Source: Roseinatronobacter ekhonensis (GTDB lineage: Bacteria; Pseudomonadota; Alphaproteobacteria; Rhodobacterales; Rhodobacteraceae). From it: a DNA stretch of 64,000 nt. Below are positions 14,863 to 38,474 of this stretch, in pieces. Below the pieces are notes generated by a model. The model saw only the letters and a list, made by a program, of their open reading frames with translations. It was not told where the DNA came from and made no database searches. Location of the stretch: NCBI RefSeq assembly GCF_900499075.1, contig NZ_UIHC01000007.1, positions 1 to 64,000 on the forward strand, given 5' to 3'. Numbering within the stretch: position 1 is the first letter of the stretch; the number at the start of each line of letters is the position of its first letter. The position numbers and the translations under genes were made by a program.

Positions 14863-14889
14863 AGAGGCATTCAGCAAGGAGGGGCTGTC

Positions 14890-16245
14890 ATGACCCGTCA
14901 CGATCTGCCGCAAGGCATGGTGCGCGCGCCGTCGCATACCGTCCCACATGAAGGTTATATGCCCGGCTGGGCCAATGATTTCGAGACTGAAGCCCTGCCC
15001 GGCGCCTTGCCTCAGGGCATGAACAGCCCACAGAAATGCGATTACGGACTGTATGGCGAGCAGCTATCGGGCACGGCGTTCACCGCCAATCCGCCCGAAC
15101 GCACATGGACCTACCGCATTCGCCCCTCGGTCAAGCATTCGGCGCGGTATGTGAAAATCGACCTGCCCTATTGGAAATCCGCGCCTTGTGTGGACCCGGA
15201 TGTCATTTCGCTCGGCCAATACCGCTGGAATCCGGTGCCGCATGCCGAAACTGGCCTGACATGGCTGACGGGCATGCGCACCATGACCACGGCGGGCGAC
15301 GTGAATACGCAAACCGGCATGGCCAGCCATATTTATCTTGTGACGGACTCGATGGAGGATGCCTATTTCTACTCTGCCGATAGCGAACTCTTGGTCGTGC
15401 CGCAGGAAGGGCGTTTGCGCTTTTGCACCGAGCTTGGGATTATTGACGTAGACCCCAAGGAAATCGCCATCATCCCGCGCGGGTTGGTTTACCGGGTCGA
15501 GGTTCTGGACGGCCCCTGCCGCGGGTTCGTGTGCGAAAATTACGGCCAGAAGTTTGAAATGCCGGGCCGCGGCCCGATCGGTGCCAATTGCATGGCCAAC
15601 CCGCGCGATTTCAAGGCCCCTGTCGCGGCCTATGAGGATCGCGAGGTACCGTCCACCCTGACGATAAAATGGTGCGGGCAGTTCCACGAAACACAGATCG
15701 CGCAAAGCCCGCTGGATGTGGTCGCGTGGCACGGCAATTACGCGCCCTACAAATACGACCTGAGCACCTATTGCCCGGTCGGCGCGATCCTGTTCGACCA
15801 CCCGGACCCGTCCATCTTCACCGTGCTGACCGCGCCCTCGGGCGTGCCCGGCACCGCGAATATCGACTTCGTTCTGTTCCGCGAGCGTTGGATGGTGGCG
15901 GAAAACACCTTCCGCCCGCCATGGTATCATAAGAACATCATGTCGGAACTGATGGGCAATATCTATGGCCAGTATGACGCCAAACCCCAAGGTTTTGTTC
16001 CCGGCGGGATGAGCCTGCACAACATGATGCTGCCGCACGGCCCCGACCGCGACGCGTTCGAAAAAGCGTCGAATGCCAATCTGGGACCCGACAAGCTGGA
16101 CAACACCATGTCCTTCATGTTCGAAACCCGATTCCCGCAGCACCTGACCCGCTTCGCCGCGCAGGAAGCCCCGCTTCAGGACGATTATATCGACTGCTGG
16201 GACAGTCTGGACAAGAAATTCGACGGCACACCGGGGCGCAAGTAA
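14890..16245 (+). CDS. hmgA: Homogentisate 1,2-dioxygenase
   Basis: A 451-residue Fe(II) ring-cleaving dioxygenase that converts homogentisate to maleylacetoacetate in tyrosine and phenylacetate degradation. The N-terminus has the family block [20 protein letters not shown], and the metal-site segments [14 protein letters not shown] and [15 protein letters not shown] are present, giving the His-Glu-His ligand set. It is the first gene of the catabolic operon and is separated from the next gene by two bases. The start at 14890 has an excellent ribosome site; a longer in-frame extension would cross the promoter. Confidence 0.96.
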
Positions 16246-21542: not shown

Positions 21543-22433
21543 ATGGTGGATACGACACGGCTAGAAAAGCTATTGGGCCGCGTGGCCGACCCCAGCACGA
21601 AGCGCGCGGGCAGTTCCAATATGCCCGCAGCCCGCAATCTTGCGTTGTCGGGCCATCGCGATATGCGGCGCGACGGCGCGGCCAGGGCGCTGTCACCGCA
21701 GCGCAAAGCTCAGGTAGAAGCGCAGTGGGATAGCTTGCAGGCGTTCAAGCGCGACCCGTCGCCGGACAGCAAGATCACGCAATTCAACAAGCAGGCCCGC
21801 GCACCCGACGTGGTTGCGCTGTTTGACGTGTTGCGCACCCAGCTTGCCCAGACCTTCGCCGAGCGGCGTGTCCGCACTTTGGCAATCACCGCGCCCGCCA
21901 GCGGTTGCGGCACCAGTTTTGTCACGGCGGGCCTGCTCGCCAGTTTCGCGCGGCGCAACGAGCAGCGTGTGCTTGGGCTGGACCTGAATGTCACGGCACC
22001 TGCGTTGCACCGGTTTTTCGAACTCGACAGCCCTCGCCCGATTGACGCGCTGATTTCCGGCGCGGCCAGCCCGCATGACCATCTGGTCAAGATAACCAGC
22101 CGCGTGGCCGTCGGCCTTGGCGCGCCGACAGAAACGCCCGATCTGCTGACCAGCGCGATCTCTGCGCAGGAACTGGCAGAGATGCTGGACGAATTGACCG
22201 CCGAATTTGCGCCCGAACTGCTGATCTGCGACCTGCCGCCCCTGCTGGACGGGGACGCGGCCATGACCATCCTGCCGCAAATGGGCGCGACCTTGCTGGT
22301 TGCCGACAGCGCCCGAACCACCGCCGCCGATATTGCCCAATGCGAACGCCTTTTGGCTGAAAAAAGTGATTTTCTGGGTGTGATCCTGAACCAAAACAGC
22401 GGCGCGGCGCGTAACGCCGCCAAGCGCAGCTAA
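21543..22433 (+). CDS. BY-kinase-like ATPase (CpsD/CapB family) with altered P-loop
   Basis: A 296-residue protein with the fold of the cytosolic CpsD/Wzc kinase domain that pairs with Wzz proteins. The P-loop reads APASGCGTS (residues 117-125): Thr124 replaces the Walker A lysine. The Walker A' segment is LGLDLNV (Asp147) and Walker B is LLICDLPPLL. No C-terminal tyrosine cluster is present. The protein may bind nucleotide poorly, or act as a non-catalytic partner of the adjacent Wzz. The first 85 residues are a basic extension. It is the first gene of the 16-kb operon and is followed 15 bases later by wzz. Confidence 0.78.
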   Translation: MVDTTRLEKLLGRVADPSTKRAGSSNMPAARNLALSGHRDMRRDGAARALSPQRKAQVEAQWDSLQAFKRDPSPDSKITQFNKQARAPDVVALFDVLRTQLAQTFAERRVRTLAITAPASGCGTSFVTAGLLASFARRNEQRVLGLDLNVTAPALHRFFELDSPRPIDALISGAASPHDHLVKITSRVAVGLGAPTETPDLLTSAISAQELAEMLDELTAEFAPELLICDLPPLLDGDAAMTILPQMGATLLVADSARTTAADIAQCERLLAEKSDFLGVILNQNSGAARNAAKRS

Positions 22434-22448
22434 CGGACGGAAGCGACC

Positions 22449-23813
22449 ATGGGACCGATCCAGACACTTGACGAACTTCGCGGATTTCTGGCGCGCCGTG
22501 CGGCGCTTATCGCCGCCGTGGCCTTTATCGCGACCATTGGTGCGATCTTTTTCGCGCTGTCGACCGATCATACGTATGACAGTCAGGCCGTCATTCAGGT
22601 CGAGGGGCCGAGCGTAAGCAGCGACGTAACCGCAGGTGCGGTGCCGTCCAGCGCCGCGCGGCGGCTGGCCTCTGTCGAACAGCGGCTGATGTCGCGCGGC
22701 AACTTGCTGGATCTTGCCAACCGATACGACATGTTCCCCGGCATGACCCCGCAAGAGCGTGTGCTGGGCATGCGCGAATCGATCCGGTTCGAGGTGGTCG
22801 CTGCAATTCGTGAACGCGCCGCGCTTGGAACCGATGTCACCAGCGAAAACCGCTCGCGCACCCTGACCGTCAGCGTGACAGAGGCGTTCGCGACCGATGC
22901 CATCGTGTCGCTGGTGCGGGTCATGACGGAAGCAGGCGATCCGCAAGTGGCCGCAGATCTGGCCAATGAACTGGCCGATGCCATCGTGCAGGAAAATGCC
23001 TCTACCGTCGCAGGCAACGTCCGCGAGGCGATTGATTTCTTCGCACGGCAGGAAGAGCGCATTCGTCAGGAAATCGAATCCGTCGCGGCCGAGATTGTCG
23101 CGTTCAAATCCGAGAATTTCGACTTGCTGCCCGAGGCGATGGAAGACCGTCGCGAGGAACAAATCTCGATCCGCGAGGACCTGTTGCGTGCCAACCGCGA
23201 AATCGCGGCTCTTGAGAACGAGATCGCGACGCTGGAGAACCAAAGCCGGCTGCGCGCCACCGAACAGCGCCGCCTGAACGCAGCGCAGGACGAACTGGCG
23301 GCCGTGCAGCGCGAGCAGGACCAGTTGCGTCAACAATCTGCCGAACTGGAACGGCTGGCCCGCGCTGCCCCGCAAGTCGCGTTCGAGCTGGAAGCCCTGG
23401 AGCGTCGCGAATTCCAGCTTCGCGAACAGGCCAACGACATCGCCGAACGCCGCCTGAACGCCTCTCTGGGCGAACAATTGGATGATGACCAGAATTTCGA
23501 ACGATTCGAAATGCTGGAGGCCGCGTTGCCCGCCGATTACCCGTCGTCGCGGTCGCGCGCTTCGATGGTCGTGATGGGGCTTATCGGCGGCCTGTTTCTG
23601 GGGCTTATGCTGTCCTATGCGATGGAATGGTTAAACCCGGCCCTGCGCAGCGCCGCACAAGTGGAGCGTGAACTGGGTATGCAGCCGGTTCTGACCATCC
23701 CCAAACTGGAACTGCCCGCAGAACGCAGGCGCCGCGGCGTCGGCTGGGCCGCAGGTGGTGCGCTGGTTTTGCTGACGGGGCTTGCCCTTGTCATGATGAC
23801 ATTGGGCGGGTGA
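22449..23813 (+). CDS. Wzz/GumC-type polysaccharide chain-length protein (GNVR-like)
   Basis: A 454-residue inner-membrane co-polymerase. There are transmembrane segments near residues 18-40, near 370-395 and at the extreme C-terminus (about 425-452). The long periplasmic stretch between the first two is coiled-coil with many EQR/EIE repeats, typical of PCP-2/GumC proteins. The Wzz family sets polymer length with a Wzy polymerase and, with a CpsD partner, forms a split Wzc. Both partners are adjacent genes. No outer-membrane export protein (Wza) is within the window. Confidence 0.85.
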   Translation: MGPIQTLDELRGFLARRAALIAAVAFIATIGAIFFALSTDHTYDSQAVIQVEGPSVSSDVTAGAVPSSAARRLASVEQRLMSRGNLLDLANRYDMFPGMTPQERVLGMRESIRFEVVAAIRERAALGTDVTSENRSRTLTVSVTEAFATDAIVSLVRVMTEAGDPQVAADLANELADAIVQENASTVAGNVREAIDFFARQEERIRQEIESVAAEIVAFKSENFDLLPEAMEDRREEQISIREDLLRANREIAALENEIATLENQSRLRATEQRRLNAAQDELAAVQREQDQLRQQSAELERLARAAPQVAFELEALERREFQLREQANDIAERRLNASLGEQLDDDQNFERFEMLEAALPADYPSSRSRASMVVMGLIGGLFLGLMLSYAMEWLNPALRSAAQVERELGMQPVLTIPKLELPAERRRRGVGWAAGGALVLLTGLALVMMTLGG

Positions 23814-23823
23814 GGCAGGCGTC

Positions 23824-25332
23824 ATGGGAAATGCCATTGCATATCTTGTGCTTCTGACATGGCCCCTGGCCATTCTGGTCATGTTCCGCCGCATGGCCCC
23901 GGAGCGCGCGTTTATCTGGTCCATCCTGGGCGGCTACATGCTGTTGCCGCAACTGACGCAGGTAAACCTGCCGCTGCTGCCCGATCTGGACAAGGTGCTT
24001 ATCCCCAATGTCACGGCTTTTATGGTCTGTCTGGCGCTGGTGCGGGCGCGGGTTGCGGTTGTGCCGCAAAACCTGCTGGCACGGTTACTGTTGATGCTGT
24101 TCATCCTGTCACCCGCATTCACCGTCTTTACCAATACAGAACCGCTGCAATTCGGGCTTGTGACTTCTGATCACACCACGTGGATGGGCATCTTTTCGCC
24201 CGCGAATGCCACTATCCCCGGCCTGCGGCTCTACGATTCCGTCTCGGTCGTGGCCGCGCAGATCATCTTTATGCTGCCCTTCTTTCTGGCGCGCAGCCTG
24301 CTGGCGCATGAGCGTGCGCTGGCAGAAGTGCCGCGCGCACTGGTTGTGGCCGGGCTGATCTATTCGGTTCCCATGCTGATCGAGAACATCACCGGGCCGG
24401 AGCTTCACCGGCTGTTTTACGGCTATATCCAGCATGATTACGGCCAAGCGATCCGCTTTGGCGGGTTCCGTCCCTATGTGTTCATGCCGCACGGGCTGTG
24501 GGTCGCATTCTTTGCAATGATGTGCTTCACCTCTGCGCTGTTGCAGGCCCGGAAAGCCGATGCAGCAGAACGCACGCGCACCGTGGTGATCGCGATCTGG
24601 CTGGGCATTTCGTTGGTATTGTGCCGCAGCGTCGGGCCTTTGGCCCTGACACTGGTGGTCGCGCCGCTGGTGCTGTTTTTCGGCCCGCGCATGCAGTTGC
24701 GGATGGCAGCGCTGATGGCGCTGACCGCACTGGCCTATCCGCTTTTGCGCGGCTCCGGCGTTGTGCCGGCCGAGGCGCTGGTGCGGTTCATCGCAGGGCT
24801 AAGCCCCGACCGCGCGGAATCTCTCGCCTACCGTTTCACGAACGAGGATATCTTGCTGGAACGCGCCGCCGACAAGCCGCTGTTCGGCTGGGGCGCTTGG
24901 GGCCGCAATCTTGTGTATGATCCCGAAACCGGCGAGGCGCTGACCATTTCCGATGGGCAATGGATTATCACCATCGGGCAGTCGGGCTGGCTGGGCTATA
25001 TCGCGACATTCGGCCTGCTGTGCCTGCCGATCTTTGCGCTGTGGTGGCGGTATCGTCAGGTCGACAACGCCCAGATCCCCGGTCAGGTCGGGTTGCTGGC
25101 GCTGATCCTTGGTGCGAACCTTGTCGACCTGTTGCCGAACGCCACGCTTATTCCCTTCACATGGCTGCTTGCGGGCGCGCTGCTGGGCCACGCCGAATTG
25201 GTGGCAAACCGGGCCCATGCCGCAAAACTGGACAGACTTCAGGCATTGGGCACGCGCCGCACGCTGCTGGCCACCGCCCAACCCAAACGCAGACCTGCGC
25301 CCCTACATTCCGAACAGGACCAGATGTTATGA
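23824..25332 (+). CDS. Wzy-like O-antigen polymerase/ligase family membrane protein
   Basis: A 502-residue integral membrane protein with about eleven transmembrane helices and a large central loop (around residues 115-180) with W/D/R-rich segments, as in Wzy and WaaL proteins. In this family the role is glycan polymerisation or ligation to a lipid or protein. The stop codon overlaps the PKS start (ATGA), so polymerase and PKS are translated in a coupled way; this is the tightest join between the glycan and the PKS half of the operon. Family assignment is from topology and context rather than a strict motif. Confidence 0.75.
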   Translation: MGNAIAYLVLLTWPLAILVMFRRMAPERAFIWSILGGYMLLPQLTQVNLPLLPDLDKVLIPNVTAFMVCLALVRARVAVVPQNLLARLLLMLFILSPAFTVFTNTEPLQFGLVTSDHTTWMGIFSPANATIPGLRLYDSVSVVAAQIIFMLPFFLARSLLAHERALAEVPRALVVAGLIYSVPMLIENITGPELHRLFYGYIQHDYGQAIRFGGFRPYVFMPHGLWVAFFAMMCFTSALLQARKADAAERTRTVVIAIWLGISLVLCRSVGPLALTLVVAPLVLFFGPRMQLRMAALMALTALAYPLLRGSGVVPAEALVRFIAGLSPDRAESLAYRFTNEDILLERAADKPLFGWGAWGRNLVYDPETGEALTISDGQWIITIGQSGWLGYIATFGLLCLPIFALWWRYRQVDNAQIPGQVGLLALILGANLVDLLPNATLIPFTWLLAGALLGHAELVANRAHAAKLDRLQALGTRRTLLATAQPKRRPAPLHSEQDQML

Positions 25333-28300
25333 GTAACGAGCAGATTTTCAGCGAAAACGACATTGCCATCATCGGCATGGCCGCACATTTGCCCGGAGCA
25401 TCCTCTGTGGCGGAATTCTGGGACAATCTGCGCGCCGGACGGTCGTCCATCCGCCGCCTGTCAGAGCAGGAATTGCTGGACGCGGGCGAATCCGCCGCGA
25501 TGTTGCGCAAGCCAAACTATGTGCCCTTTGCCGCCCCGCTTGACGGGTTTGCAGAGTTCGACCCCGACCTGTTTGGTTTTTCGCCGAAAGAAGCCGCCAT
25601 TCTGGACCCCCAGCACCGCCAGTTCCTAGAGGTCGCGTGGGAAGCGTTTGAAAACGCCGGCCACCCGCCGCGCGGCGAAAAAGGCACCGTGGGCGTGTTT
25701 TCCGGCTGCGGCATGGGCAGCTATTTCTATTTCAACCTGTGCTCGAACCCGCATCTGGTCGATGACGTGGGCATGTTTTTGCTGCGCCATACCGGCAATG
25801 ACAAGGATTTCCTGACCACTCGTGTCAGCCATATTCTGGACCTGCACGGCCCTTCGGTAAATGTGCAGACAGCCTGCTCGACCTCGCTTGTGGCAGTGCA
25901 TTACGCGGTCAACGGGCTGTTGACGGGCGAATGCGACATGGCGCTGGCGGGCGGTGTTACCATCGAGTTGCCGCAAGGGCGCGGCTACCTGCACAAGGAA
26001 AACGAGATCCTGTCGCCCGATGGCGAATGCCACGCGTTCGACCACCGTGCCCAAGGGACGGTGTTCGGGTCGGGCGCGGGCGCGGTGGTGCTGCGCAGGC
26101 TGGCTGATGCCATGGCCGATGGCGACCGGATCATCGCCGTCGTCAAGGGCAGTGCCATCAACAATGACGGCGCGCAGAAGGCGGGCTATCTGGCCCCGTC
26201 GGTCGAAGGGCAGGCCGCCGCGATTGCGGATGCCCACCAGATCGCAGGCGTTGCGTCCGACAGCATTTCCTATGTCGAGTGCCACGGCACTGGCACCTAT
26301 TTGGGCGACCCGATAGAGGTTGCCGCGCTGACCGAAGCCTTCGCCAGCGACAAGACCGGGTTTTGTCGCATCGGGTCGGTGAAAACCAATATCGGGCATC
26401 TGGACACGGCGGCGGGTGTGGCCAGCATCATCAAGGTCGCGCAAGCGCTGCACCACCGCGAATTGCCGCCGTCCTTGGGGTATGAGGCCCCGAACCCCGC
26501 GATTGATTTCGAACATTCGCCCTTCGTGGTGAATGACCAGCTCACCCCGTGGCAAGCGGATGGGCCATTGCGCGCGGGCGTGAACTCGCTTGGCGTGGGC
26601 GGAACGAACGCGCATGTGGTGCTGGAAGAAGCGCCCGCGCGCAGCGCGTCTGACGACAGCGATTGGCCGTTCCAGATCCTGACACTGTCGGCAAAATCCA
26701 AAACCGCGCTTGCAGCCAATGCGAACAACCTCGCCGCGCATCTGCGCACCCATCCCGACCAGCCCTTGGCCGATGTGGCCTTTACCTTGAAGGAAGGGCG
26801 CACCGCGCTGGACCAGCGCCGCGTGGTCGTGGCCGAAACGCATGCAGAGGGCGCCGACCTGCTGGACCAGGACAACCCGCGCCGCGTGTTCACGCATACC
26901 GCGCTGGACCGCACGGACATGGTGTTCATGTTCCCCGGCGGCGGCGCGCAATATGCGGGCATGGCGCGCGAGCTCTATGAAACAGAGCCGGTCTTTGCCG
27001 AATGGATGGACCGTGGTCTGGACCATTTGCAACCCAAGCTGGATTACGACATCCGCGCGCTGTGGTTGCCCGAAAAAGGGTCTGAGGCGGCGGCGAATGC
27101 CCAACTTACCCGTCCCTCGGTGCAACTGCCACTGATCATGATTACCGAATACGCGCTGGCGCAGATGTTCATGGGCTGGGGCGTGGAGCCGCAGGTGCTG
27201 GTCGGCCATTCGATGGGCGAGAACGCCGCCGCCTGTCTGGCGGGCGTCATGTCGTTCGAAGATTGCATCGGCCTTGTCCACCTGCGCGGACGGCTGTTCG
27301 ACACGGTGCCTGCGGGCGGTATGCTGTCGGTGCCCCTGTCGCTGGACGCGCTGCAACCCTATCTGGACGGTGACCACGATATCGCATCCATCAACGCGCC
27401 GGAACTGACCGTCATTTCCGGCCCGCAAGCCGCGCTGGACCGGCTGCAAGCCAAGCTGGCAGCAGATGAGGTGGACGCGACCCGCATCGCCATCGACATT
27501 GCCGCGCATAGCCGGATGCTGGACCCGATCCTGTCGGAATTCGGCGCCTATCTGCGGTCCATTCCGCTGCATGCGCCGCGGCTGCCGATCATCTCGAACT
27601 TCACCGGAGAGGCGCTGACCGACGCGCAGGCCACCGACCCCGACTATTGGGTGCAACACCTGCGCAACACGGTGCGCTTTGCCGATTGCGTTGGCACGCT
27701 TGGCACCGTCCCGAACCGGATTTACCTTGAAATGGGGCCGGGCAAGGCGCTGTCTTCGCTGACCCGCATGCACGGCGCTGTGCCGGGGCAACAGGTGCTG
27801 GCGGCCCTGCGCCACCCGGAAGAAGAGATTGCGGACGACCTGTATCATCTGGGTGTTCTGGCGCGCATCTGGGCGCTGGGCGGCAGTTTTGATTGGGCGC
27901 AAATCTGGGGCGACGCCAAACGCCACCGCGTCGAATTGCCGACCTACGCCTTTCAGCGCGCGCGATATTTCATAGAGCCGGGCACGGTGCAGACCGACAG
28001 CGCCCCCGCGCTGGACCGGCTGGATGATATCTCTGCCTGGGGCAGCAAGATCGCGTGGAAACCCGCCTATGCCGATTGCGAGATCGACGTGGCGACCGAT
28101 CTGGGCACTGATCCGCAGACATGGCTGGTCTTTGCCGACGAGGACGGCACCGCCGCCCCGGTCATGGACCGGCTTCGTCGCGCGGGCCACAAGGTCATTG
28201 AGGTCCGCGCGGGCGATACCTATGCGCGCAAATCCGACACGTCCTTTACCCTTGCGCCGGAACATGGGCGCGAAGCCTATGCCCGCCTGCTGGCCGATCT

Positions 28301-31300
28301 GATTGCCAGCGGCACCGCGCCCACGCGCATTGCACATTTCTGGCTGGTCACGGGCCGCGAGCGGTTCCGCCCCGGCTCCAGCTTTTTGCACCGCAATATT
28401 GAACAGGGCTTCTACGCGCTGATGTTCCTTGCGCAGGCGATGCAGAGCGAAACGCTGCCGCAGCCCGTGCATATGGTCGTTTTCACGAATGGCGCGCAGG
28501 CACTGGAGGGTGAGGCCCTGCGCCACCCCGAAAAGGCCATGATCGCCGGTCCAGCCCGGGTCGCCCCGCGCGAGATTGCGGGCCTGACCTGCGCGACGCT
28601 GGACATTGACGCAAGTGCCGCGCCCGACACGCTGCTGGAAGAGCTTTGCGCAACACCCGCCAACAGCACTGCACTTGTGCGGGCAGGCAAGCGGTATGGG
28701 CAGGTTCTGCGCCCTGCCGCGTTGCCGGATGCCCTGCCCGATATGCCTGACGGCGCGCATTGGATCATAACCGGCGGGTTTGGTGGCATTGGCCTGACCT
28801 TGGCCGAAGACCTGATCACACGTTTCAACGCAAAGATCACGCTGATTGCCCGCACGGCGCTGCCCGACCGCGCCGACTGGGACGACTGGAAGGCCCATCA
28901 CGGCCCCGCCGACCCGACCACACGCCGCCTGCTGGCCGTAGAGCGGCTGGAAGCCCTTGGCGGGCATGTTCATGTCGCGGGTGCGGATGTCTGCAATATT
29001 GACCAGATGCGCGACGCCCTGAAGGCGGCGACCAAATCGCATGGCACACCTTACGGGTTGATCCATGCGGCGGGGCATATTGCGGATGCGCCCCTGTTGG
29101 CGAAATCCACGGGCGACGTGGAAGAGGTATTCGCACCCAAGCTGCACGGGTTGCGCGTGCTTGACAGCCTGCTGCCCGACGGGGCGTTGCAGGTGATGGT
29201 GCTGTTCTCGTCCACCTCCACGCTGACTGCGCCGGTGGGGCAGGTCGATTATGTGGCCGCCAACGAATACCTGAATGCCTTTGCCCGCGCGCGGGTCGGT
29301 GGCAAAACCCGTGTCATCGCGCTGGACTGGGGCATCTGGGCAGAGGCAGGCATGGCCGCCGATGCAATGGCCGAGCGGCTGGGCCATGCGCCCAAACCGC
29401 CCGCCAGCCCATGCGCCCAACCTCTCTATGACGACATGGGGTTCGACCCGGCCGGAAACCGGCGTCTGAGCACGCAACTTTCGTCTGAAAACTGGATCGT
29501 GGACCAGCACCGCACCCGCGACGGCGCTGCGATCCTGCCGGGCACCGGCTATCTGGACCTTGCGGCGCAGGCGTTGCGGGCCCAAGGCGAAACCGCCCCG
29601 TTCGAATTGCGTGACTTGTATTTCTTCCGTGCGCTGACCGTGCCGGACGGGTCGTCGCGCAAACTGCGCGCCACGCTGGAACGCTCGCCCGAAGGGTATG
29701 AATTTTCCCTGCGCAGCGATGTCATGCATGGCGGGTCCGAAGGGTTCGTGCTGAACGCCCAAACGCAAATCGCGCTGCTGGACGGGATTACCCGCCCGGC
29801 GCCAATTGCCCCCGCGGACATCGCGGCACGCTGCCCCGATGTCACAGAGGGGTCCGGCCTTGCCAGCCCGCAAGAGGCGCATCTGGCCTTTGGTCCGCGT
29901 TGGCGCGTGCTGACCCGCACCGCCTATGGCACGGATGAGGGGATCGCAGATCTGTCACTGCCGGATGCGTTCACCGCCGATCTGGACGCGGGCCATATCC
30001 TGCACCCCGCGTTGATGGACCTTGCCACCGGGTGGGCCATGGGGCTGATCCCCGGCTATAGCGGTGCGCATTTGTGGGTGCCCCTGTCCTATGGCGCGGT
30101 CCGGGTCTGGGCCGATCTGCCGCAGCACATTGTCAGCCATGCCCGCCTGCGCCGCGACAGCGATCCGGGGTTCGCAAGCTTCGACATTACGCTGGCCACG
30201 CCACAAGGCGACGTGGTGGCAGAGATCACGCGCTTCACCATCAAGCGGCTGGCACATGGCAGTTTTGCCGATGCGCCCCCGATCCGCGCCACCGAAGTCA
30301 TGCGCGACGCGACCGCCAACGCCACCCTTTCGCCCGCAGAAGAGCGGTTGCGCGACTTGTTGGCCCTGGGGATTACACCGGCAGAGGGTGCGCAAGCCTT
30401 CCTGCGCGCCTTGGCCTTGGGTGTTTCGCCCATTATCGTGTCGTCAATCGACCCCAAGGCGCTGATCGCCCAAGTCTCGGCCGAAGCCAGCGCCCCGACA
30501 CCCGATGGCGGGTTTGAGCGCCCCGATCTGGGCACCGACTACATCGCCCCGCGCAATGACGTGGAACGCACGCTGACCGGCATCTGGCAAAGCCTGCTCG
30601 GGATTGACCGGATCGGTGCCGAGGACAGTTTCTTCGACCTTGGCGGCCATTCGCTGATCGCGGTGCGCCTGTTTGCGCAGGTCAAGAAAGCCTACGGGGT
30701 GGATTTCCCCATCTCTGTGCTGTTCGAGGCGCCCACCATCGCCGCCTGCGCCGCCATGATCGCAGAGCAAACGGGCGCGTCGCTGGACGACACCGGCACC
30801 GACAATGTGGTGCAGCTGCCCAAGCGCCGCCGCTTCAAGCATCTTGTTCCCATGCATGATGGCGAAGGCGGGTCCAAGCCGCCCTTCTTCCTTGTGGCGG
30901 GCATGTTCGGCAATGTGCTGAACTTGCGCCACCTTGCCACGCTTGCGGGTCGCGACCGGCCATTCTACGGGCTACAGGCGCGTGGGTTGTTCGGGGGCGA
31001 AGCCCCGCATGACCGTATAGAGGACGCTGCCGCAGACTATATCGCAGAGATCCGGCAAGTGCAGCCGCATGGCCCCTACAGCCTTGGCGGGTTCTCTGGC
31101 GGGGGCATCACGGCCTATGAAATGGCCCGCCAGTTGGAAGCCGCCGGAGAGGTGGTCGAGCTGGTTGTCATGCTCGACACACCGTTGCCCGTGCGCCCGG
31201 AACTGACTGCACCCGACAAAGCCTTGATAAAGCTGGCGGAACTGAAGCGCAAAGGCCCGTCCTACCTGTCGGAATGGTGGCAGGCCCGCAGCGCGTGGAA

Positions 31301-31661
31301 GCGCCGCAAGGCCGAAGGCCCGGCCACTGACACCGAAGACGCGTTCCACAATGCCGCGATCGAATCCGCCTTCCGCCGCGCCGTGGCCGACTACACCGTG
31401 CAGCCGTGGGACGGGCGGCTGGTGCTGTTCCGTCCGCCGCTGGACCGCCACTGGAAGGTGACAGGCGGCAACTGGGTCAGCCGTGAGCGGGAATATGTCT
31501 TCCCCGACAATGACTGGACCGGCTTTGCCCCGGCGCTGGAGGTGTATGAAGTGCCAGGCGACCATGACAGCATGGTTCTGGAACCCAATGTCCGCGTGCT
31601 GGCCGGCAAACTGCAAACCCTGCTGCCCGACAGCCCGTGTTGCAAGGAGGCGGCGGAATGA
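25329..31661 (+). CDS. Type I polyketide synthase, KS-AT-KR-DH-ACP-TE
   Basis: A 2110-residue single-module PKS. KS is at about 10-430 with the triad Cys183 (TACSTS), His319 (HGTGTYLGDP) and His357 (NIGHLD). AT is at about 530-830 with Ser628 in GHSMGE; the specificity position reads IAAHS, neither the typical malonyl nor methylmalonyl motif. KR is at about 1140-1340 with TGGFGGIG and the catalytic segment VDYVAANEY. DH is at about 1380-1630 with His1394 and Asp1564 (HPALMD). ACP carries Ser1775 (LGGHSL). TE is at about 1850-2100 with Ser1923 (GFSGG) and His2079. All domains look active. KR precedes DH, the reverse of the usual order, and no enoyl reductase is present, so the product should be alpha,beta-unsaturated. 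It overlaps the polymerase gene and the next GT gene (ATGA at both ends). Confidence 0.93.
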   Translation: MSNEQIFSENDIAIIGMAAHLPGASSVAEFWDNLRAGRSSIRRLSEQELLDAGESAAMLRKPNYVPFAAPLDGFAEFDPDLFGFSPKEAAILDPQHRQFLEVAWEAFENAGHPPRGEKGTVGVFSGCGMGSYFYFNLCSNPHLVDDVGMFLLRHTGNDKDFLTTRVSHILDLHGPSVNVQTACSTSLVAVHYAVNGLLTGECDMALAGGVTIELPQGRGYLHKENEILSPDGECHAFDHRAQGTVFGSGAGAVVLRRLADAMADGDRIIAVVKGSAINNDGAQKAGYLAPSVEGQAAAIADAHQIAGVASDSISYVECHGTGTYLGDPIEVAALTEAFASDKTGFCRIGSVKTNIGHLDTAAGVASIIKVAQALHHRELPPSLGYEAPNPAIDFEHSPFVVNDQLTPWQADGPLRAGVNSLGVGGTNAHVVLEEAPARSASDDSDWPFQILTLSAKSKTALAANANNLAAHLRTHPDQPLADVAFTLKEGRTALDQRRVVVAETHAEGADLLDQDNPRRVFTHTALDRTDMVFMFPGGGAQYAGMARELYETEPVFAEWMDRGLDHLQPKLDYDIRALWLPEKGSEAAANAQLTRPSVQLPLIMITEYALAQMFMGWGVEPQVLVGHSMGENAAACLAGVMSFEDCIGLVHLRGRLFDTVPAGGMLSVPLSLDALQPYLDGDHDIASINAPELTVISGPQAALDRLQAKLAADEVDATRIAIDIAAHSRMLDPILSEFGAYLRSIPLHAPRLPIISNFTGEALTDAQATDPDYWVQHLRNTVRFADCVGTLGTVPNRIYLEMGPGKALSSLTRMHGAVPGQQVLAALRHPEEEIADDLYHLGVLARIWALGGSFDWAQIWGDAKRHRVELPTYAFQRARYFIEPGTVQTDSAPALDRLDDISAWGSKIAWKPAYADCEIDVATDLGTDPQTWLVFADEDGTAAPVMDRLRRAGHKVIEVRAGDTYARKSDTSFTLAPEHGREAYARLLADLIASGTAPTRIAHFWLVTGRERFRPGSSFLHRNIEQGFYALMFLAQAMQSETLPQPVHMVVFTNGAQALEGEALRHPEKAMIAGPARVAPREIAGLTCATLDIDASAAPDTLLEELCATPANSTALVRAGKRYGQVLRPAALPDALPDMPDGAHWIITGGFGGIGLTLAEDLITRFNAKITLIARTALPDRADWDDWKAHHGPADPTTRRLLAVERLEALGGHVHVAGADVCNIDQMRDALKAATKSHGTPYGLIHAAGHIADAPLLAKSTGDVEEVFAPKLHGLRVLDSLLPDGALQVMVLFSSTSTLTAPVGQVDYVAANEYLNAFARARVGGKTRVIALDWGIWAEAGMAADAMAERLGHAPKPPASPCAQPLYDDMGFDPAGNRRLSTQLSSENWIVDQHRTRDGAAILPGTGYLDLAAQALRAQGETAPFELRDLYFFRALTVPDGSSRKLRATLERSPEGYEFSLRSDVMHGGSEGFVLNAQTQIALLDGITRPAPIAPADIAARCPDVTEGSGLASPQEAHLAFGPRWRVLTRTAYGTDEGIADLSLPDAFTADLDAGHILHPALMDLATGWAMGLIPGYSGAHLWVPLSYGAVRVWADLPQHIVSHARLRRDSDPGFASFDITLATPQGDVVAEITRFTIKRLAHGSFADAPPIRATEVMRDATANATLSPAEERLRDLLALGITPAEGAQAFLRALALGVSPIIVSSIDPKALIAQVSAEASAPTPDGGFERPDLGTDYIAPRNDVERTLTGIWQSLLGIDRIGAEDSFFDLGGHSLIAVRLFAQVKKAYGVDFPISVLFEAPTIAACAAMIAEQTGASLDDTGTDNVVQLPKRRRFKHLVPMHDGEGGSKPPFFLVAGMFGNVLNLRHLATLAGRDRPFYGLQARGLFGGEAPHDRIEDAAADYIAEIRQVQPHGPYSLGGFSGGGITAYEMARQLEAAGEVVELVVMLDTPLPVRPELTAPDKALIKLAELKRKGPSYLSEWWQARSAWKRRKAEGPATDTEDAFHNAAIESAFRRAVADYTVQPWDGRLVLFRPPLDRHWKVTGGNWVSREREYVFPDNDWTGFAPALEVYEVPGDHDSMVLEPNVRVLAGKLQTLLPDSPCCKEAAE

Positions 31662-32644
31662 GCGCGCGTGTCCTGACGGTAATCCTGAATTACCGCACTG
31701 CCGAGATGTGCTTGCGCGCCGCGCAGGCCGCCCGTGTTGCGATGGAAAGGTTGGCCGGGGAAATCGTGATTGTCGACAATGACAGCAATGACGGGTCAGA
31801 AGAGCAGTTACGCGCAGGCACCCACGGCTGGCCGCGCACACGGGTCATCCAGTCGGGCGTGAATGGCGGGTATGGTGCGGGCAACAATGTCGGAATACGT
31901 GCTGGCATGGCCGACGGGTCCAAGCCCGATTTCGTCTACCTGCTGAATTCCGACGCATTTCCCGACCCCGACGCCATTGCGCAGCTTCGCGACTACCTGA
32001 CAGCCCATCCCGATTGCAGCTTTGCGGGCAGCCATATTGTCGGCGAGGACGGGGGCGACCATGTCACCGCCTTCCGCTTCCATTCGGCGTGGTCAGAGTT
32101 CGAAACCGCTGCCAATACCGGCCTCGTCTCTCGGGTGCTCAGAAAACATATCGTGCCCATGGGCGTCCCCCAAAACCCCACGCGGGTGGACTGGTGCGCA
32201 GGCGCAAGCGTGATGTTTCGCCAGAGCGCGCTTGACCGGGTGGGCCTGTTCGATGAACGGTTCTTTCTGTATTTCGAGGAAACAGACCTATGCCACCGGA
32301 TGGCCGATGCGGGCTGGCACGGGATCTACCTGCCCGATAGCCGGGTGGTGCATGTCGGCGGGGCCTCTACCGGGGTGACGGGACTGGCGCGCAAACCGGG
32401 CTACTGGTTTGACTCGCGCCTGTTGTATTTCTCTAACCGCGGCGGGCGAGGGTATGTATTGCTGACGACACTGGCCTTTCTGGCCGGTGCCAGCATCTGG
32501 ACCGTCCGACGCCTGATCGAACGCAAAGATGACCGCATTGCGCCACATTTTCTGCGCGATCTGATGTCACACACGATCAGATACCTGATGCCGGGCGCGA
32601 CGGCCTCTCGGGGCAGTAAAGGGGCACGCGAAGCGGCCCGATAG
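31658..32644 (+). CDS. Glycosyltransferase family 2 (rhamnosyltransferase-like)
   Basis: A 328-residue GT2 enzyme. The N-terminal GT-A fold has VILNYRT, the acceptor-side VIVDNDSNDGS and NGGYGAGNN, then LLNSDAFPD in the DxD position and FFLYFEETDLCHR, the block conserved in WbbL-type rhamnosyl/hexosyltransferases. A hydrophobic stretch near residue 270 may bind the membrane. ATG 31658 overlaps the PKS stop and AAGGAGG lies upstream. Lying between the PKS and NRPS genes, it is likely to glycosylate the assembly-line product or build the repeat unit of the associated polymer. Confidence 0.88.
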   Translation: MSARVLTVILNYRTAEMCLRAAQAARVAMERLAGEIVIVDNDSNDGSEEQLRAGTHGWPRTRVIQSGVNGGYGAGNNVGIRAGMADGSKPDFVYLLNSDAFPDPDAIAQLRDYLTAHPDCSFAGSHIVGEDGGDHVTAFRFHSAWSEFETAANTGLVSRVLRKHIVPMGVPQNPTRVDWCAGASVMFRQSALDRVGLFDERFFLYFEETDLCHRMADAGWHGIYLPDSRVVHVGGASTGVTGLARKPGYWFDSRLLYFSNRGGRGYVLLTTLAFLAGASIWTVRRLIERKDDRIAPHFLRDLMSHTIRYLMPGATASRGSKGAREAAR

Positions 32645-32653
32645 GGGTTTGGT

Positions 32654-35600
32654 ATGACGCAGTTTAACAGCATCCTCATTGGCGACGAAACGCTCACCGC
32701 AGAATGCGGCGCACAGCTTTTGGCGCGCGGGCACCGTATTGGTGCGGTTGTCACAGACAACCCGCGCGTGGCTGACTGGGCGGCGGGTGCTGGCCTGAAC
32801 GTGCTCGCCCCCGGCGCCGGGCTTGCCGCGCGTTTGGCGGGTTTGCAGGCGGATTGGCTGTTCAACATCGCCGGGCTGCGTATGCTGCCGCGCAACGTGC
32901 TGGACCTGCCAGCGCTTGGTGCAATCAACTTTCATGACGGCCCGTTGCCGCGCCATGCCGGGCTGAACGCGCCGGTCTGGGCGCTGCTAGAGGGCGAGGC
33001 CCGACACGGCATCGCATGGCATGTCATCGAGGACGGTGTCGATACCGGCGATGTGCTGGTCAGTGCGGAATTTGATATTTCGCCCGAAGATACCGCCCTG
33101 ACGCTGAACACGAAGTGCTTTAGCGCAGGTCTGGACAGCTTTGCGCAGGTTCTGGATATGCTGGCCGCGGGGCAACTCGCCCGCCAGCCGCAGGACATGA
33201 CTGCACGCTCGGTGCATACACGCGCCGACCGGCCCGGATTGGGCGGCCAGATTGACCCGCGCCAGACCACGACCGACATCCTGCGCCTTGTGCGCGCCAT
33301 GGATCACGGCCCTTACTGGAACCCGCTGACCACACCAAAGCTGCGTTTGGGTCAGACGGTGGTTTGCGTGGGCCAAGCCGACATGGCCGACGGCCACGCG
33401 CCCGCAGGCACCATTCTGGACGTGTCCGAAGATAGCGTGACGGTTGCGTGCGCCGATGGTGCACTGCGCCTGTTCGGCCTGATCTGCCAGCAAGGCAAGC
33501 CGGTCATGCCTGCCGCTCTGGTTGCTGCAGGCGACAAGCTGGGCGCGCCGGATACGCGCTTGCATGACGTTCTGGTGCAGATTGCCAATGCCGAACCTGC
33601 CTATCGCGACGCGCTGCGCGGCGCGGGCGATCCTGGTCTTGGCCAAGGCACGGAAAGCGAAATGCTGCCTCTGGATCTGGGTGGCGCCACCACGGATGCC
33701 AGCATCGCGGCCTTCGCCGCCGCCCTTGGCGCAGCGTTCGGGCGCACGGCGCTGCGCATGGCCCATGTCACCCGTGCGGGCGCTGAACTGGCGGCACAAG
33801 CCCCCGATTTCTTGTTGGGCTGGGCACCGCTTCTGGTGTCGATGGACGATACCGGCCCGCTGAGCAGCCTGCAAAACCAGATGAAACGTGCCGCCCACGC
33901 CCCTGCGCTGGCCCGCGACTTGCCAGCCCGCGACCCGTCGCTTGGCCCGATCGCGCCGCCGGAACTGGCCGTGACCGATGGCAGCCCAAGCGATGCCGCA
34001 CTGGTGCTGGACCTGTCCGGCCCCGCCCTGCGCTATGATCCCGCCTGCCTGTCGGCAGAGCTGGCCGCGACGTTGAAAACCACCATCGAAGCGTTGGCCC
34101 CGAAGCTGGCCGATATGCCGCTTGCCGCACAGGTTACAGCGCCCGACATCAAAGCGGATGACACGGCGCGGCCCTATGACCGCGCCTGCATCCATCATGC
34201 GTTCGAGCATCAGGTGGCCAAAACCCCCGATGCCGAGGCACTGAGCTTTGAGAACCAAAGCCTGACCTATGCCGAGTTGAACGCCCGCGCCAACCGCGTG
34301 GCGCATGTGCTGCTGGGTATGGGTTTGCGCCCCGACACGCCCGTCGCACTCTGCGCAAAACGCGGGCCAAACCTGTTGGTGGGCGCGCTGGGCATTCTGA
34401 AAGCGGGCGGCGCCTATGTACCGCTGGACCCTGCCTATCCGGCGGACCGGCTGGCGCATTACCTGAGTGATTCCGGAGCGCCATTTATTGTGACCGAGCA
34501 CGCATTGCTGGACATGCTGCCGGACCACAGCGCCGAGATGCTGCAACTGGACACCGACACGCGGCTGGACGCCGCACCCGACACAAACCCCGACAGCGCG
34601 GTGACGCCCGATAATCTGGCCTATCTGATCTATACATCGGGTTCGACCGGCACCCCCAAGGGCGTGATGGTCGAACACGGCAACGTCGCCAATTTCTTTG
34701 CCGGTATGGATGACTGCATCCGCCATGACCCGCCGGGCGTGTGGCTGGCGGTCACGTCGCTCAGCTTTGACATTTCCGTGCTGGAACTGTTCTGGACGCT
34801 GGCGCGCGGCTTCAAGGTGGTGCTGATGGGCGACGAGGATCGCGCCATGGTCGCCAAGGGACCCGTCCGCGTGTCCGAAGGGCATATGGATTTCAGCCTC
34901 ATGTATTGGGGCAATGATGACGGCCAAGGCCCTCAGAAATATCACCTTTTGCTGGAGGGCGCGAAATTCGCCGACAGCCACGGCTTCTGCGCGGTCTGGA
35001 CGCCGGAGCGTCATTTCCACGCTTTCGGCGGTCCCTTCGCCAACCCGTCCGTGTCGGGGGCTGCTGTGGCCGCCGTAACCCAGAACATCGCCGTGCGCGC
35101 AGGCTCTTGCGTGGCACCGCTGCACTCGCCCATTCGCATTGCCGAAGAATGGGCCATGATCGACAACCTGACCAACGGGCGCACCGGAATCGGTATCGCG
35201 TCGGGCTGGCACCCGGTGGATTTCGTTCTTCGCCCCGAAAACCGCCCGCCCAATAACAAGGCGGCCATGTTCGAAACGCTGGAAACCCTGCGCAAACTGT
35301 GGCGCGGCGAGACGGTGGAATTCGACAAGGGCGACGGCATGGTGCCGATCCAGACCCTGCCGCGCCCCGTGTCGTCTGAATTGAACATCTGGCTGACCAC
35401 GGCGGGCAACCCCGAGACATGGCGCGAGGCCGGGCGCTTGGGCGCGCATGTGCTGACCCACCTTCTGGGCCAGTCGGTCGCAGAGGTGGAAGGCAAGATC
35501 AAGATCTACCACGAGGCACTGCGCGAAACCGGCCGCGATCCGGCGGATTACACCGTCACGCTGATGCTGCACACGTTCGTCGCCCGCGACCGTGAACACG

Positions 35601-37183
35601 CCCGCGAAGTGGCGCGCGGCCCGATGAAAAGCTACCTCAAGGCCGCGGCGGCGCTGGTCAAGCAATATGCCTGGGCCTTCCCCGCTTTCAAGAAACCCGA
35701 AGGCGCGAAGAACCCGATGGATATCGACCTGTCCACCCTGTCCGACGACGAGGTCGAGGGCATTCTGGACTACGCGTTCAACCGTTATTTCGAGGATTCG
35801 GGGCTGTTCGGCACGGTCGAGGATTGCCTTGAGCGGGTGGAGCAACTCAAAGCCATCGGCGTCAATGAAGTGGCCTGCCTGATCGACTACGGCATCGCCA
35901 CCGAACAGGTGCTGGAAGGGCTTTACCCGCTGGCCGAAGTGGTCAAACGCTCGAATGCCGGGCTGCACCTGCCGGATGATGACTTCTCGCTGTCTGCGCA
36001 AATCCTGCGCCACAAGGTCACGCATCTGCAATGCACCCCGTCCATGGCGCGTATGCTGTGCATGAGCGACGAGGCACGCGCGGCACTGGCCACCGTACCG
36101 AATGTGCTGGTCGGCGGCGAAGCGCTGCCGGGCGCTTTGGCACAAGAGATTTCGGGCCTGACTGGCCAGCCCCTTCGCAACATGTATGGGCCGACGGAAA
36201 CGACAATCTGGTCGTCCAGCACGACAACCCGTGGTAATGCGGGCGTGGTCGGCATCGGTGCGCCGATTGCCAACACGTCCCTGCATGTTCTGGACGAGAC
36301 TCAACGGCCCGTACCGCTGGGCACCGAGGGCGAGCTTTACATCGGCGGCGACGGCGTGACGCGCGGTTACTGGAACCGGGCAGAGATGACGGCGGACCGC
36401 TTCATCCCCAATCCATTCGGCGCAGGACGGCTTTACCGCACGGGCGATCTGGTGCGCCGCAACCCTGCGGGTGGCATTGATTTCCTTGGGCGCGTGGACA
36501 ATCAGGTCAAGCTACGCGGGCACCGCATCGAACTGGGAGAGATCGAGAGCGCGCTCGACGCGGTGGCAGGGATTACCCAATCGGTGGTCATCGCGCGCGA
36601 GGACCAACCCGGCGATCTGCGGCTTGTGGCCTATTACACCGGCACCCCTGCAGGCGACCTGCGCAGCAGCCTTGCAGACCGGCTGCCCGCGCATATGCTG
36701 CCTTCGCATTTCGTGCCGATGGCAGCTTTGCCGCTGACCCCGAACAAGAAAATTGACCGCAAGGCATTGCCCGCGCCGACGCAGGCACCCGCCGCAACCA
36801 CGCAACCCGCATCCGATGCGGCCCCTGCCGCCGAGGGCACGCAAGCCACCATCGCGCAGGTCTGGCAAGACGTGTTGGGCATCGCACAAGTGGCCGGGTC
36901 GGATAATTTCTTCAACCTTGGCGGCCATTCGTTGCTGGCGGTGCAGGCCCATCGCGAATTGCGCGCGCGGCTGAACATGCCGGGCTTGTCGATTACCGAT
37001 ATTTTCCGCTTCCCGGTGCTGGGCGATCTGGCGCGCCATCTGGACGCAAAGCAACGCCCCGCCCCTGCGGCAACAGTGCAGCCTTTGCACCCGACAGCGG
37101 ACACACCGGCAGCACCAACCGACCGCATGGACGCCATGGCACGCCGCCGCGCGATGCGCGACAGAAGGGCAGGTACCAAATGA
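32654..37183 (+). CDS. NRPS with formyltransferase domain and monooxygenase-interrupted adenylation domain
   Basis: A 1509-residue single-module NRPS. Residues 1-290 resemble methionyl-tRNA formyltransferase, with the triad Asn92, His94, Asp130 and motif NFHDGPLPRHAG. Residues about 300-510 look like a C-terminal remnant of a condensation domain without HHxxxDG. The adenylation domain starts near 530, with A3 YTSGSTGTPKG near 660 and A4 before 720. It is interrupted at about 745-1095 by a luciferase-like FMN monooxygenase of the MupA/Atu3671 type (DFSLMYWGNDDG, WTPERHFHAFGGP, ASGWHP). It resumes with A5 NMYGPTETT (1175), YRTGDL (1261) and NKKIDRKAL. PCP carries Ser1426 (LGGHSL). There is no TE or functional C domain, which fits a loading module. 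The PPTase start overlaps its stop. Confidence 0.92.
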   Translation: MTQFNSILIGDETLTAECGAQLLARGHRIGAVVTDNPRVADWAAGAGLNVLAPGAGLAARLAGLQADWLFNIAGLRMLPRNVLDLPALGAINFHDGPLPRHAGLNAPVWALLEGEARHGIAWHVIEDGVDTGDVLVSAEFDISPEDTALTLNTKCFSAGLDSFAQVLDMLAAGQLARQPQDMTARSVHTRADRPGLGGQIDPRQTTTDILRLVRAMDHGPYWNPLTTPKLRLGQTVVCVGQADMADGHAPAGTILDVSEDSVTVACADGALRLFGLICQQGKPVMPAALVAAGDKLGAPDTRLHDVLVQIANAEPAYRDALRGAGDPGLGQGTESEMLPLDLGGATTDASIAAFAAALGAAFGRTALRMAHVTRAGAELAAQAPDFLLGWAPLLVSMDDTGPLSSLQNQMKRAAHAPALARDLPARDPSLGPIAPPELAVTDGSPSDAALVLDLSGPALRYDPACLSAELAATLKTTIEALAPKLADMPLAAQVTAPDIKADDTARPYDRACIHHAFEHQVAKTPDAEALSFENQSLTYAELNARANRVAHVLLGMGLRPDTPVALCAKRGPNLLVGALGILKAGGAYVPLDPAYPADRLAHYLSDSGAPFIVTEHALLDMLPDHSAEMLQLDTDTRLDAAPDTNPDSAVTPDNLAYLIYTSGSTGTPKGVMVEHGNVANFFAGMDDCIRHDPPGVWLAVTSLSFDISVLELFWTLARGFKVVLMGDEDRAMVAKGPVRVSEGHMDFSLMYWGNDDGQGPQKYHLLLEGAKFADSHGFCAVWTPERHFHAFGGPFANPSVSGAAVAAVTQNIAVRAGSCVAPLHSPIRIAEEWAMIDNLTNGRTGIGIASGWHPVDFVLRPENRPPNNKAAMFETLETLRKLWRGETVEFDKGDGMVPIQTLPRPVSSELNIWLTTAGNPETWREAGRLGAHVLTHLLGQSVAEVEGKIKIYHEALRETGRDPADYTVTLMLHTFVARDREHAREVARGPMKSYLKAAAALVKQYAWAFPAFKKPEGAKNPMDIDLSTLSDDEVEGILDYAFNRYFEDSGLFGTVEDCLERVEQLKAIGVNEVACLIDYGIATEQVLEGLYPLAEVVKRSNAGLHLPDDDFSLSAQILRHKVTHLQCTPSMARMLCMSDEARAALATVPNVLVGGEALPGALAQEISGLTGQPLRNMYGPTETTIWSSSTTTRGNAGVVGIGAPIANTSLHVLDETQRPVPLGTEGELYIGGDGVTRGYWNRAEMTADRFIPNPFGAGRLYRTGDLVRRNPAGGIDFLGRVDNQVKLRGHRIELGEIESALDAVAGITQSVVIAREDQPGDLRLVAYYTGTPAGDLRSSLADRLPAHMLPSHFVPMAALPLTPNKKIDRKALPAPTQAPAATTQPASDAAPAAEGTQATIAQVWQDVLGIAQVAGSDNFFNLGGHSLLAVQAHRELRARLNMPGLSITDIFRFPVLGDLARHLDAKQRPAPAATVQPLHPTADTPAAPTDRMDAMARRRAMRDRRAGTK

Positions 37184-37881
37184 TACAGCAACGGTTCTCA
37201 TACGCGGAATTCGCGCGCCCCTTGTTCAGCGATTTTGTCGCGATGGCTTGGGCCGACCCCACCGCGCCCATGCCCCGCCTGATCGGCGACGAGGTTTTGG
37301 CGGTCGAACAGGTCAGCCCGGCCCGCGCGCGCGAATTCGGCGCAGGGCGCGCTGCTGCCCGAGAGGCGATGGGCGACCTTGGCCAACCTCCGCGCCCCGT
37401 GCTGCAAGGCGAAGACCGCGCGCCGGTCTGGCCCAAAGGCCTGACAGGGTCCATTACCCATACCGGACGCGACTGCATGGCGGTTGTCACCGATGCGCCA
37501 GATATCTGCGCGCTGGGGCTGGATATGGAAGCGGCCACACCGCTCGAATCCGCGCTGTGGCCAGAGATTTGCACGATGTCCGAAATGCACTGGCTGGCAA
37601 GCCTTGGGCCGTCACAGCGCGGCCATTTCGCCAAGCTGATCTTCAGCGCGAAGGAAGCTGTCTACAAGGCGCAATATCAGGTCAGCCGACAGATGCTCGG
37701 ATTTCACGACCTGTGCCTGTCGGTCGATCTTGCCAACCAGCGATTTGACGCCAGTGTGACCGCGCCCATTGCAGGCTTTCGCCCCGATGCGGTCCTGAAG
37801 GGGCGATTCGTTATTCTAGGGGCGGCCTTTGTCACCGCGGTCGAGCTTTGGGCCGATGACGCCGGCCTAAGCCCAGCCTGA
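37180..37881 (+). CDS. 4'-phosphopantetheinyl transferase (EntD/Sfp type)
   Basis: A 233-residue PPTase that should convert the PKS ACP (Ser1775) and NRPS PCP (Ser1426) to holo form. Visible motifs are the EntD-like REFGAGRAAAREA, the GSITHT histidine block, LGLDMEA (the Mg ligand Asp) and FSAKEAVYKAQY, the classic second signature. ATG 37180 overlaps the NRPS stop. It is the last gene of the operon, so the operon carries its own activating enzyme. Confidence 0.93.
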   Translation: MIQQRFSYAEFARPLFSDFVAMAWADPTAPMPRLIGDEVLAVEQVSPARAREFGAGRAAAREAMGDLGQPPRPVLQGEDRAPVWPKGLTGSITHTGRDCMAVVTDAPDICALGLDMEAATPLESALWPEICTMSEMHWLASLGPSQRGHFAKLIFSAKEAVYKAQYQVSRQMLGFHDLCLSVDLANQRFDASVTAPIAGFRPDAVLKGRFVILGAAFVTAVELWADDAGLSPA

Positions 37882-37915: not shown

Positions 37916-38093
37916 TGCAACATCTGCCCAGCCTTCGGAGAAGCCGCGACAGAATGCCCGAAAGGCCGTTTTCAATAGAAAATATTGGCGTTTCTGGTAT
38001 GCTTATGTGGTCAGGCAGTCAGCGTTGTCAGTAAATTTACCTTCGGTCATCAGTATCGGCGGCAGCGCATGACACAACATCGGCAGAGGTCAT

Positions 38094-38405
38094 ATGAAGA
38101 AAATTCTATCCGCCGCGGTGACGGGGTTGTTCCTTGTCGGGCCGCAATCCGCTTTCGCGGGCCCTATTGAAAACGCGTGTCTGCGATCTGATCGTGCACA
38201 AGCCACCCGTGCGATGTGCCGCTGTATCGACAGTGTTGCGCAAACCGCGCTGACACGTTCGGAACAGCGTCGGGCCGCCAGCTTCTTTTCAGACCCGGAC
38301 CGCGCGCAGCAAGTGCGTATGTCCAAAAGCGCCCGCGACAACGAGTTTTGGGATCGCTATCGCGCCTTCGGTTCAACAGCCGAGCAATACTGCGCAGGGC
38401 GCTGA
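38094..38405 (+). CDS. Small secreted protein of unknown function
   Basis: A 103-residue protein with a signal peptide (MKKILSAAVTGLFLVG...AFA|GP) and a mature part of about 80 residues with four cysteines (CLRS, MCRCID, QYCAGR), which probably form disulfides in the periplasm. AGAGGTCAT precedes the start. I do not recognise the family. A strong terminator follows 39 bases after its stop. Confidence 0.7.
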   Translation: MKKILSAAVTGLFLVGPQSAFAGPIENACLRSDRAQATRAMCRCIDSVAQTALTRSEQRRAASFFSDPDRAQQVRMSKSARDNEFWDRYRAFGSTAEQYCAGR

Positions 38406-38444: not shown

Positions 38445-38474
38445 GGGCGCGGGGAAAACCCCCGCGCCCTTTTT
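38445..38474 (+). terminator. Strong intrinsic terminator
   Basis: GGGCGCGGGG (38445-38454), a short A-rich loop, then CCCCGCGCCC (38460-38469) and TTTTT. A 10-bp GC stem with U tract ends the small secreted protein gene; it also separates it from the convergent PCuAC gene that stops at 38478. Confidence 0.85.

Follow-up and report, generated by a model that had tools for sequence, protein, structure and literature searches.

A conserved PKS-NRPS unit with a probable link to Wzy-type exopolysaccharide in Rhodobacteraceae

The window analysed here is a stretch of 64,000 nucleotides from Roseinatronobacter ekhonensis (assembly GCF_900499075.1, contig NZ_UIHC01000007.1, positions 1 to 64,000). 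Between positions 21543 and 37881 it carries a seven-gene operon in which polysaccharide-assembly genes adjoin a two-protein assembly line of a polyketide synthase (PKS) and a nonribosomal peptide synthetase (NRPS), together with a family 2 glycosyltransferase (GT2) and a 4′-phosphopantetheinyl transferase (PPTase). Gene order, flanking genes and co-occurrence across the family indicate that the assembly line is very probably linked in function to a Wzy-type exopolysaccharide.

Results

All seven genes are intact and lie in the same direction, as a previous model-made annotation of the bare letters (from here: the sequence-only reading) had described. The gene labels were taken from Pfam and NCBIfam scans of the window proteins, which lend support to each of the kinds named there. 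The genes are, in order:

21543..22433, + strand: CpsD/BY-kinase-like ATPase, probably degenerate, 296 aa (CbiA PF01656; weak TIGR03018/EpsG matches)
22449..23813, + strand: Wzz/GNVR chain-length determinant, 454 aa (PF02706 above cut-off; XrtA-type TIGR03007 below cut-off)
23824..25332, + strand: Wzy-like polymerase, putative, 502 aa (Wzy_C PF04932, E 1.8e-4, below gathering score; co-occurrence with the NRPS)
25329..31661, + strand: single-module type I PKS, KS-AT-(structural KR half)-KR-DH-ACP-TE, 2110 aa (Pfam domains; conserved catalytic residues)
31658..32644, + strand: GT2 glycosyltransferase, 328 aa (PF00535; start site; kept between PKS and NRPS)
32654..37183, + strand: one-module NRPS, formyltransferase (FT), adenylation (A) domain with inserted luciferase-like monooxygenase (LLM), PCP, 1509 aa (PF00551, PF02911, PF00501 in two pieces, PF00296/TIGR04020, PF00550)
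37180..37881, + strand: Sfp/EntD-type PPTase, 233 aa (PF17837, PF01648)

The joins measure, in order, 15, 10, -4, -4, 9 and -4 nt. Four-base ATGA overlaps occur at Wzy/PKS, PKS/GT2 and NRPS/PPTase, hence at three joins and not at the four previously counted; the first of them is the overlap of the polymerase stop with the PKS start that had already been noticed. The start of the GT2 gene, formerly placed at GTG 31637, was moved to ATG 31658, which is preceded by AAGGAGG and from which the second -4 join is measured. No promoter-like site was found directly 5′ of the operon, the sites in the scan being no more frequent than expected by chance.

The family scan places the first gene product among CbiA/BY-kinase-like proteins, which agrees with its earlier labelling as a CpsD-like ATPase, but two features of BY tyrosine autokinases (CpsD/Wzc) are absent: the Walker-A region reads TAPASGCGTS, without the lysine, and the C-terminal tail has no tyrosine cluster, indeed no tyrosines. 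Because both are missing, the protein is probably inactive as a tyrosine kinase; a role as a degenerate partner of Wzz is likely. A motif check in relatives found the same loss in the CpsD-like ATPases of the Roseibaca/Natronohydrobacter group, and GCGKS/T motifs with the tyrosine tail in many homologs of other genera. The earlier Wzz label holds, with PF02706 above the Pfam cut-off. The accompanying Wzy label stands in a weaker form, as the protein reaches 21.8 bits against Wzy_C, under the 31.7-bit Pfam cut-off, with its conserved neighbours and its co-occurrence with the NRPS alongside. An XrtA/exosortase (PEP-CTERM) locus, suggested by TIGR03007 and TIGR03018, was rejected, both matches being far under their cut-offs (130 vs 279 and 64 vs 231 bits, respectively); XrtD, present in 0 of 20 flanks of the unit, also argues against it.

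In the NRPS, an FT domain is followed by an A domain that is split by the LLM between motifs A4 and A5, and by a PCP. Residues 291-510 gave no Condensation match even at E 1, and the FT residues Asn, His and Asp are present, as in FT-A-PCP initiation modules; the best PDB match of the whole protein is the FT-A-PCP of linear gramicidin LgrA. Among solved structures, the insert is closest to the monooxygenase domain of PuwE (PDB 6ket, E 6e-103). Read against the GrsA positions, the A-domain code of the window NRPS is DILQLGMIWK, and across relatives D-I-L-Q-(mostly L or M)-G-M-I-W-K. In a survey of A domains, DILQLGMIWK is reported as the code common to four glycine-activating domains with an embedded monooxygenase (MOx) (PMC12283262). 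Code and LLM insert together are those of a glycine A domain with embedded MOx, and glycine is the substrate predicted by the code.

Residue conservation was read over 61 sequences (60 relatives and the window). The FT residues N92/H94/D130 are conserved in 60-61 of them. With single exceptions the same applies to PCP S1426 and, within the PKS, to KS C183/H319/H357, AT S628/H727, KR Y1308, DH H1394/D1564, TE S1923/D1950/H2079 and the ACP serine; no enoylreductase domain was detected in the PKS by the Pfam scan. This is consistent with the formylated, oxidised aminoacyl-polyketide proposed from the sequence alone, given the conserved FT, A (glycine code), monooxygenase, KS, KR, DH and TE residues. 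The starter would be a formylated, oxidised glycine, to which the PKS would add a single unit before release at the TE. Malonyl specificity of the AT is assumed.

The distribution of the unit was followed in 296 Rhodobacteraceae genomes from 295 genera, nearly one per genus. NRPS homologs, mostly of full length, were present in 109 of them, and a class-wide draw of 385 genomes added only 6 matches, 4 of these from Rhodobacteraceae. Gene order was compared in 60 loci around NRPS homologs. The PKS adjoins the NRPS in nearly all, the GT2 gene lies between the two in 56 (joins mostly -4 to about +6 nt), and in 49 the PPTase gene comes next after the NRPS. The pairwise distances measured for PKS, GT2 and NRPS are correlated with one another (r 0.68-0.85), and those of the PPTase are looser (r 0.28-0.41 with the other three). 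The full seven-gene order was found in Roseibaca, Natronohydrobacter, Roseinatronobacter and a few allies, including locus L033; other genera also have Wzz, CpsD and Wzy, but elsewhere in the locus. The window NRPS is 84% identical to that of Roseibaca sp. Y0-43 and, in the best segment, 85% to that of Roseibaca domitiana. The search across the family that the sequence-only reading had called for thus did not find the order in one strain only. Since the core order is conserved across dozens of genera, the seven-gene arrangement is beyond chance. It had been called unusual, which is true in comparison with described systems but not within Rhodobacteraceae, where the unit is common. Beyond the family, plasmids of Rhizobiales retain PKS, NRPS and PPTase together with polysaccharide genes.

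A Sandaracinaceae (myxobacterial) metagenome-assembled genome encodes an FT-A-LLM protein 49% identical to that of the window, with a partial PKS match upstream (L136:10001-14221), a possible case of long-distance transfer.

In plasmid records of Paracoccus, Ruegeria, Parasedimentitalea, Shinella and Aminobacter, the unit is accompanied by varying sets of flippase, priming transferase, rfb and glycosyltransferase genes. We compared the 20 kb on each side of the unit in 20 genera with one 20-kb control elsewhere in each genome; flanks thus comprise 40 kb and controls 20 kb per genome, a size gap that cannot explain the differences seen. Polysaccharide genes were present in the flanks of all 20 genera. 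Flanks and controls contained, respectively, CpsF/WecG in 20 vs 0 genera, CpsD and Wzz each in 19 vs 0, an EpsE-like GT4 in 18 vs 0, Wzx and Wzy each in 16 vs 0, and a priming transferase in 11 vs 1.

Other proteins were encountered in these flanks. An 883-aa protein with a signal-peptide-like N-terminus and without Pfam/NCBIfam match (L170:2309-4960, minus strand) is conserved in 13/20, and a 312-aa protein after the PPTase in Ruegeria, without family match, occurs in only 1/20. A second NRPS (C-A-PCP-TE, L092:674-4552) lies beside a CpsF gene in the polysaccharide locus of Paracoccus marcusii, where it may add another amino acid; its relatives occur in 4/20 upstream flanks.

Wzy proteins of the window type were found in 112 of the 296 family genomes. 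Both Wzy and NRPS occur in 101 genomes, the NRPS alone in 8, Wzy alone in 11 and neither in 176 (odds ratio 202, Fisher P 8e-56, shared ancestry not corrected for). The similarly patchy control trait pufLM (photosynthesis, 123 genomes) showed no association (P 0.81). When the 16 genomes whose Wzy match was weak or partial were dropped, 96 of the remaining 96 had the NRPS, a descriptive figure as the cut was set after seeing the list. In 27 of these 101 genomes the distance between the two genes exceeds 30 kb or they are found on separate contigs, some of these separations being assembly breaks.

No Wzx, Wza or priming transferase is encoded among the window genes scanned, as had been stated before, and homologs of all three are present on other contigs of the same genome (3.9 Mb, 196 contigs). 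One of its contigs, C67, encodes a CpsF-type transferase alongside a GT2 and two proteins that match no family. These data suggest that the polysaccharide locus is split in this genome; that the parts work together is not proven by their presence. The two proteins without family match are encoded at L225:12872-13855 and 13795-15567, the first being 49% identical to the product of the Ruegeria conchae gene that follows the PPTase gene.

Discussion

That the operon forms a single system, as opposed to two clusters that happen to adjoin, receives strong support from the PKS-GT2-NRPS order in 56 of 60 loci, the polysaccharide flanks in 20 of 20 genera and the 101 genomes with both Wzy and NRPS, including the 27 in which they lie apart. 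We favour, with moderate confidence, a dedicated unit whose product would be a short acyl group, a formylated and oxidised glycine-polyketide, for use in a Wzx/Wzy exopolysaccharide. We infer the following order of reactions. The NRPS would activate glycine, load it onto its own PCP and formylate it from a formyl-tetrahydrofolate donor, and the inserted flavin monooxygenase would oxidise the glycine at C-alpha or N. The PKS would accept this starter, add one malonyl-type unit, reduce it and possibly dehydrate it, both carriers having been activated by the PPTase. The TE would then free a C4-type acyl, e.g. a 4-formamido-, 4-oxo- or 4-oximino-butyryl or butenoyl group; this structure is tentative. 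The GT2 would place the sugar bearing, or next to, the acyl group on the lipid-linked repeat unit, which would be flipped, polymerised by the co-encoded Wzy and set in length by Wzz. Covalent attachment of the product to the polymer appears somewhat probable. More speculatively, the glycan may bear a product with a reactive or metal-binding group, such as an oxime or aldehyde, if glycine is oxidised at N or at C-alpha, or a hydroxamate of the N-formyl-N-hydroxyglycine type.

Several observations weigh against a dedicated glycan-acylating unit. Type I TE domains usually hydrolyse or cyclise their products, and no enzyme for the transfer of the product to a sugar was identified, nor was a dedicated acyltransferase among the flanking genes in which it was sought. 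The assignment of the polymerase as Wzy combines a sub-threshold Pfam match with conserved company. Shinella and Aminobacter do not have the GT2 between PKS and NRPS. Shared inheritance does not prove a chemical link, and the genera are not fully independent. Finally, a related NRPS of an Aliiroseovarius plasmid (41% identity) lies outside polysaccharide genes. In this region (L097:19386-33125) the FT-A-LLM-PCP protein adjoins a 9 kb NRPS/PKS and nos genes, and the product is probably a different one.

The same Aliiroseovarius protein, being a distinct FT-A-LLM NRPS beside an NRPS/PKS, favours the view that the line yields a free, diffusible metabolite (an antibiotic, a metallophore or a signal) to which the GT2 may add a sugar, and that its genes travel in a polysaccharide island. 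Such a product would also fit a TE that could release a free acid, and roseobacter T1PKS/NRPS-like clusters have been published as orphan secondary-metabolite clusters (PMC11225332, PMC10221251). However, the conserved core contains no exporter, resistance or regulator gene, polysaccharide genes stand beside the unit in every genus of the flank comparison, and the co-occurrence with Wzy persists when the genes are unlinked. We regard a free metabolite as rather unlikely.

Another reading takes the PKS product as a lipid-like anchor or starter for glycan building or export, as proposed for RkpA and WcbR, with the GT2 glycosylating it. PKS genes in capsule loci and the close coupling of GT2 to PKS speak for it. 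It is nevertheless quite improbable, as no enoylreductase domain was detected, a glycine starter predicts a short polar product, and the priming sugar transferase in 11 of the 20 flanks points to the usual undecaprenyl route. Already disfavoured, and very improbable, is a fusion of two functionally separate clusters in the window's lineage: the Wzy/PKS overlap and the seven-gene order, which few loci share outside the group that includes the window, would suit it, but the polysaccharide association is family-wide and recurs in different arrangements.

Among described systems, type I PKS genes occur in capsule loci, e.g. Sinorhizobium RkpA and Burkholderia WcbR. The unit is like these capsule PKS/fatty acid synthases, by description and not by sequence, in that its locus for a surface polysaccharide includes a large type I PKS; RkpA and WcbR are not known to have a partner FT-A-MOx NRPS. 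LgrA, which activates valine, shares FT-A-PCP initiation with the window NRPS, but it is without the embedded monooxygenase and leads to a peptide product. For the PuwE monooxygenase, the closest solved LLM relative, the proposed substrate is a beta-amino fatty acyl chain (PMC4219810), which differs from the glycine predicted here. In myxothiazol and melithiazol biosynthesis, hydroxylation of the glycine C-alpha by the MOx is followed by cleavage of the N-C bond, leaving glyoxylate bound to the carrier (PMC11342130). The window NRPS resembles those terminal NRPSs in carrying the MOx inside a glycine A domain with the code reported for Gly-MOx; theirs is a terminal, chain-cleaving module, whereas the module considered here would be a loading module, with a formyltransferase and without a detected condensation domain. 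In necroximes an oxygenase turns the glycine primer into an oxime (PMC7318616). The initiation of necroxime, lobatamide and oximidine is similar in that an oxygenase-modified glycine primer is followed by a PKS with DH (PMC7318616), but those lines are of the trans-AT type and yield large cytotoxic benzolactones, unlike the two proteins with integral AT, FT and TE found in polysaccharide loci.

Similar genes have been listed in roseobacters. The PKS/NRPS genes Inhi_1972 and Inhi_1974 of Phaeobacter inhibens were reported with no product given, and the one-gene gap between them is as expected for the unit, judged by description and not by sequence. ISM_16730 (Roseovarius) and SSE37_17955 (Sagittula) were described as LLM-class NRPS-like genes without product, and Tritonibacter and Sulfitobacter contain orphan T1PKS/NRPS clusters without product (PMC11225332, PMC10221251). 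These genes, likened to the unit by description only, were reported as uncharacterised secondary metabolism, untied to exopolysaccharide. The literature searched gave no function for the locus tags of the roseobacter homologs, and searchable papers, which exclude most subscription journals, held no link between a roseobacter PKS-NRPS and exopolysaccharide. Up to now the cluster has been catalogued only among orphan clusters of the antibiotic type.

If glycan decoration proves true, roughly one in three Rhodobacteraceae genera would have an exopolysaccharide that is decorated and its repeat unit finished by a natural-product assembly line, extending modular PKS/NRPS chemistry to the routine decoration of a bacterial glycan. 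With a widespread cluster linked to one polymerase and one exopolysaccharide class, the product should be looked for in the polymer and not in the culture extract only. Roseobacters are abundant marine surface colonisers.

Neighbouring genes

The operon is preceded by homogentisate-catabolism genes and a flavin monooxygenase gene. On its 3′ side, genes for PCuAC, an enoyl-CoA hydratase, an SDR and TamB/Omp85 converge on it, and a strong terminator-like stem lies at 38445-38469. Just 5′ of this stem, a small open reading frame (38093-38405) encodes a probably secreted, cysteine-containing protein.

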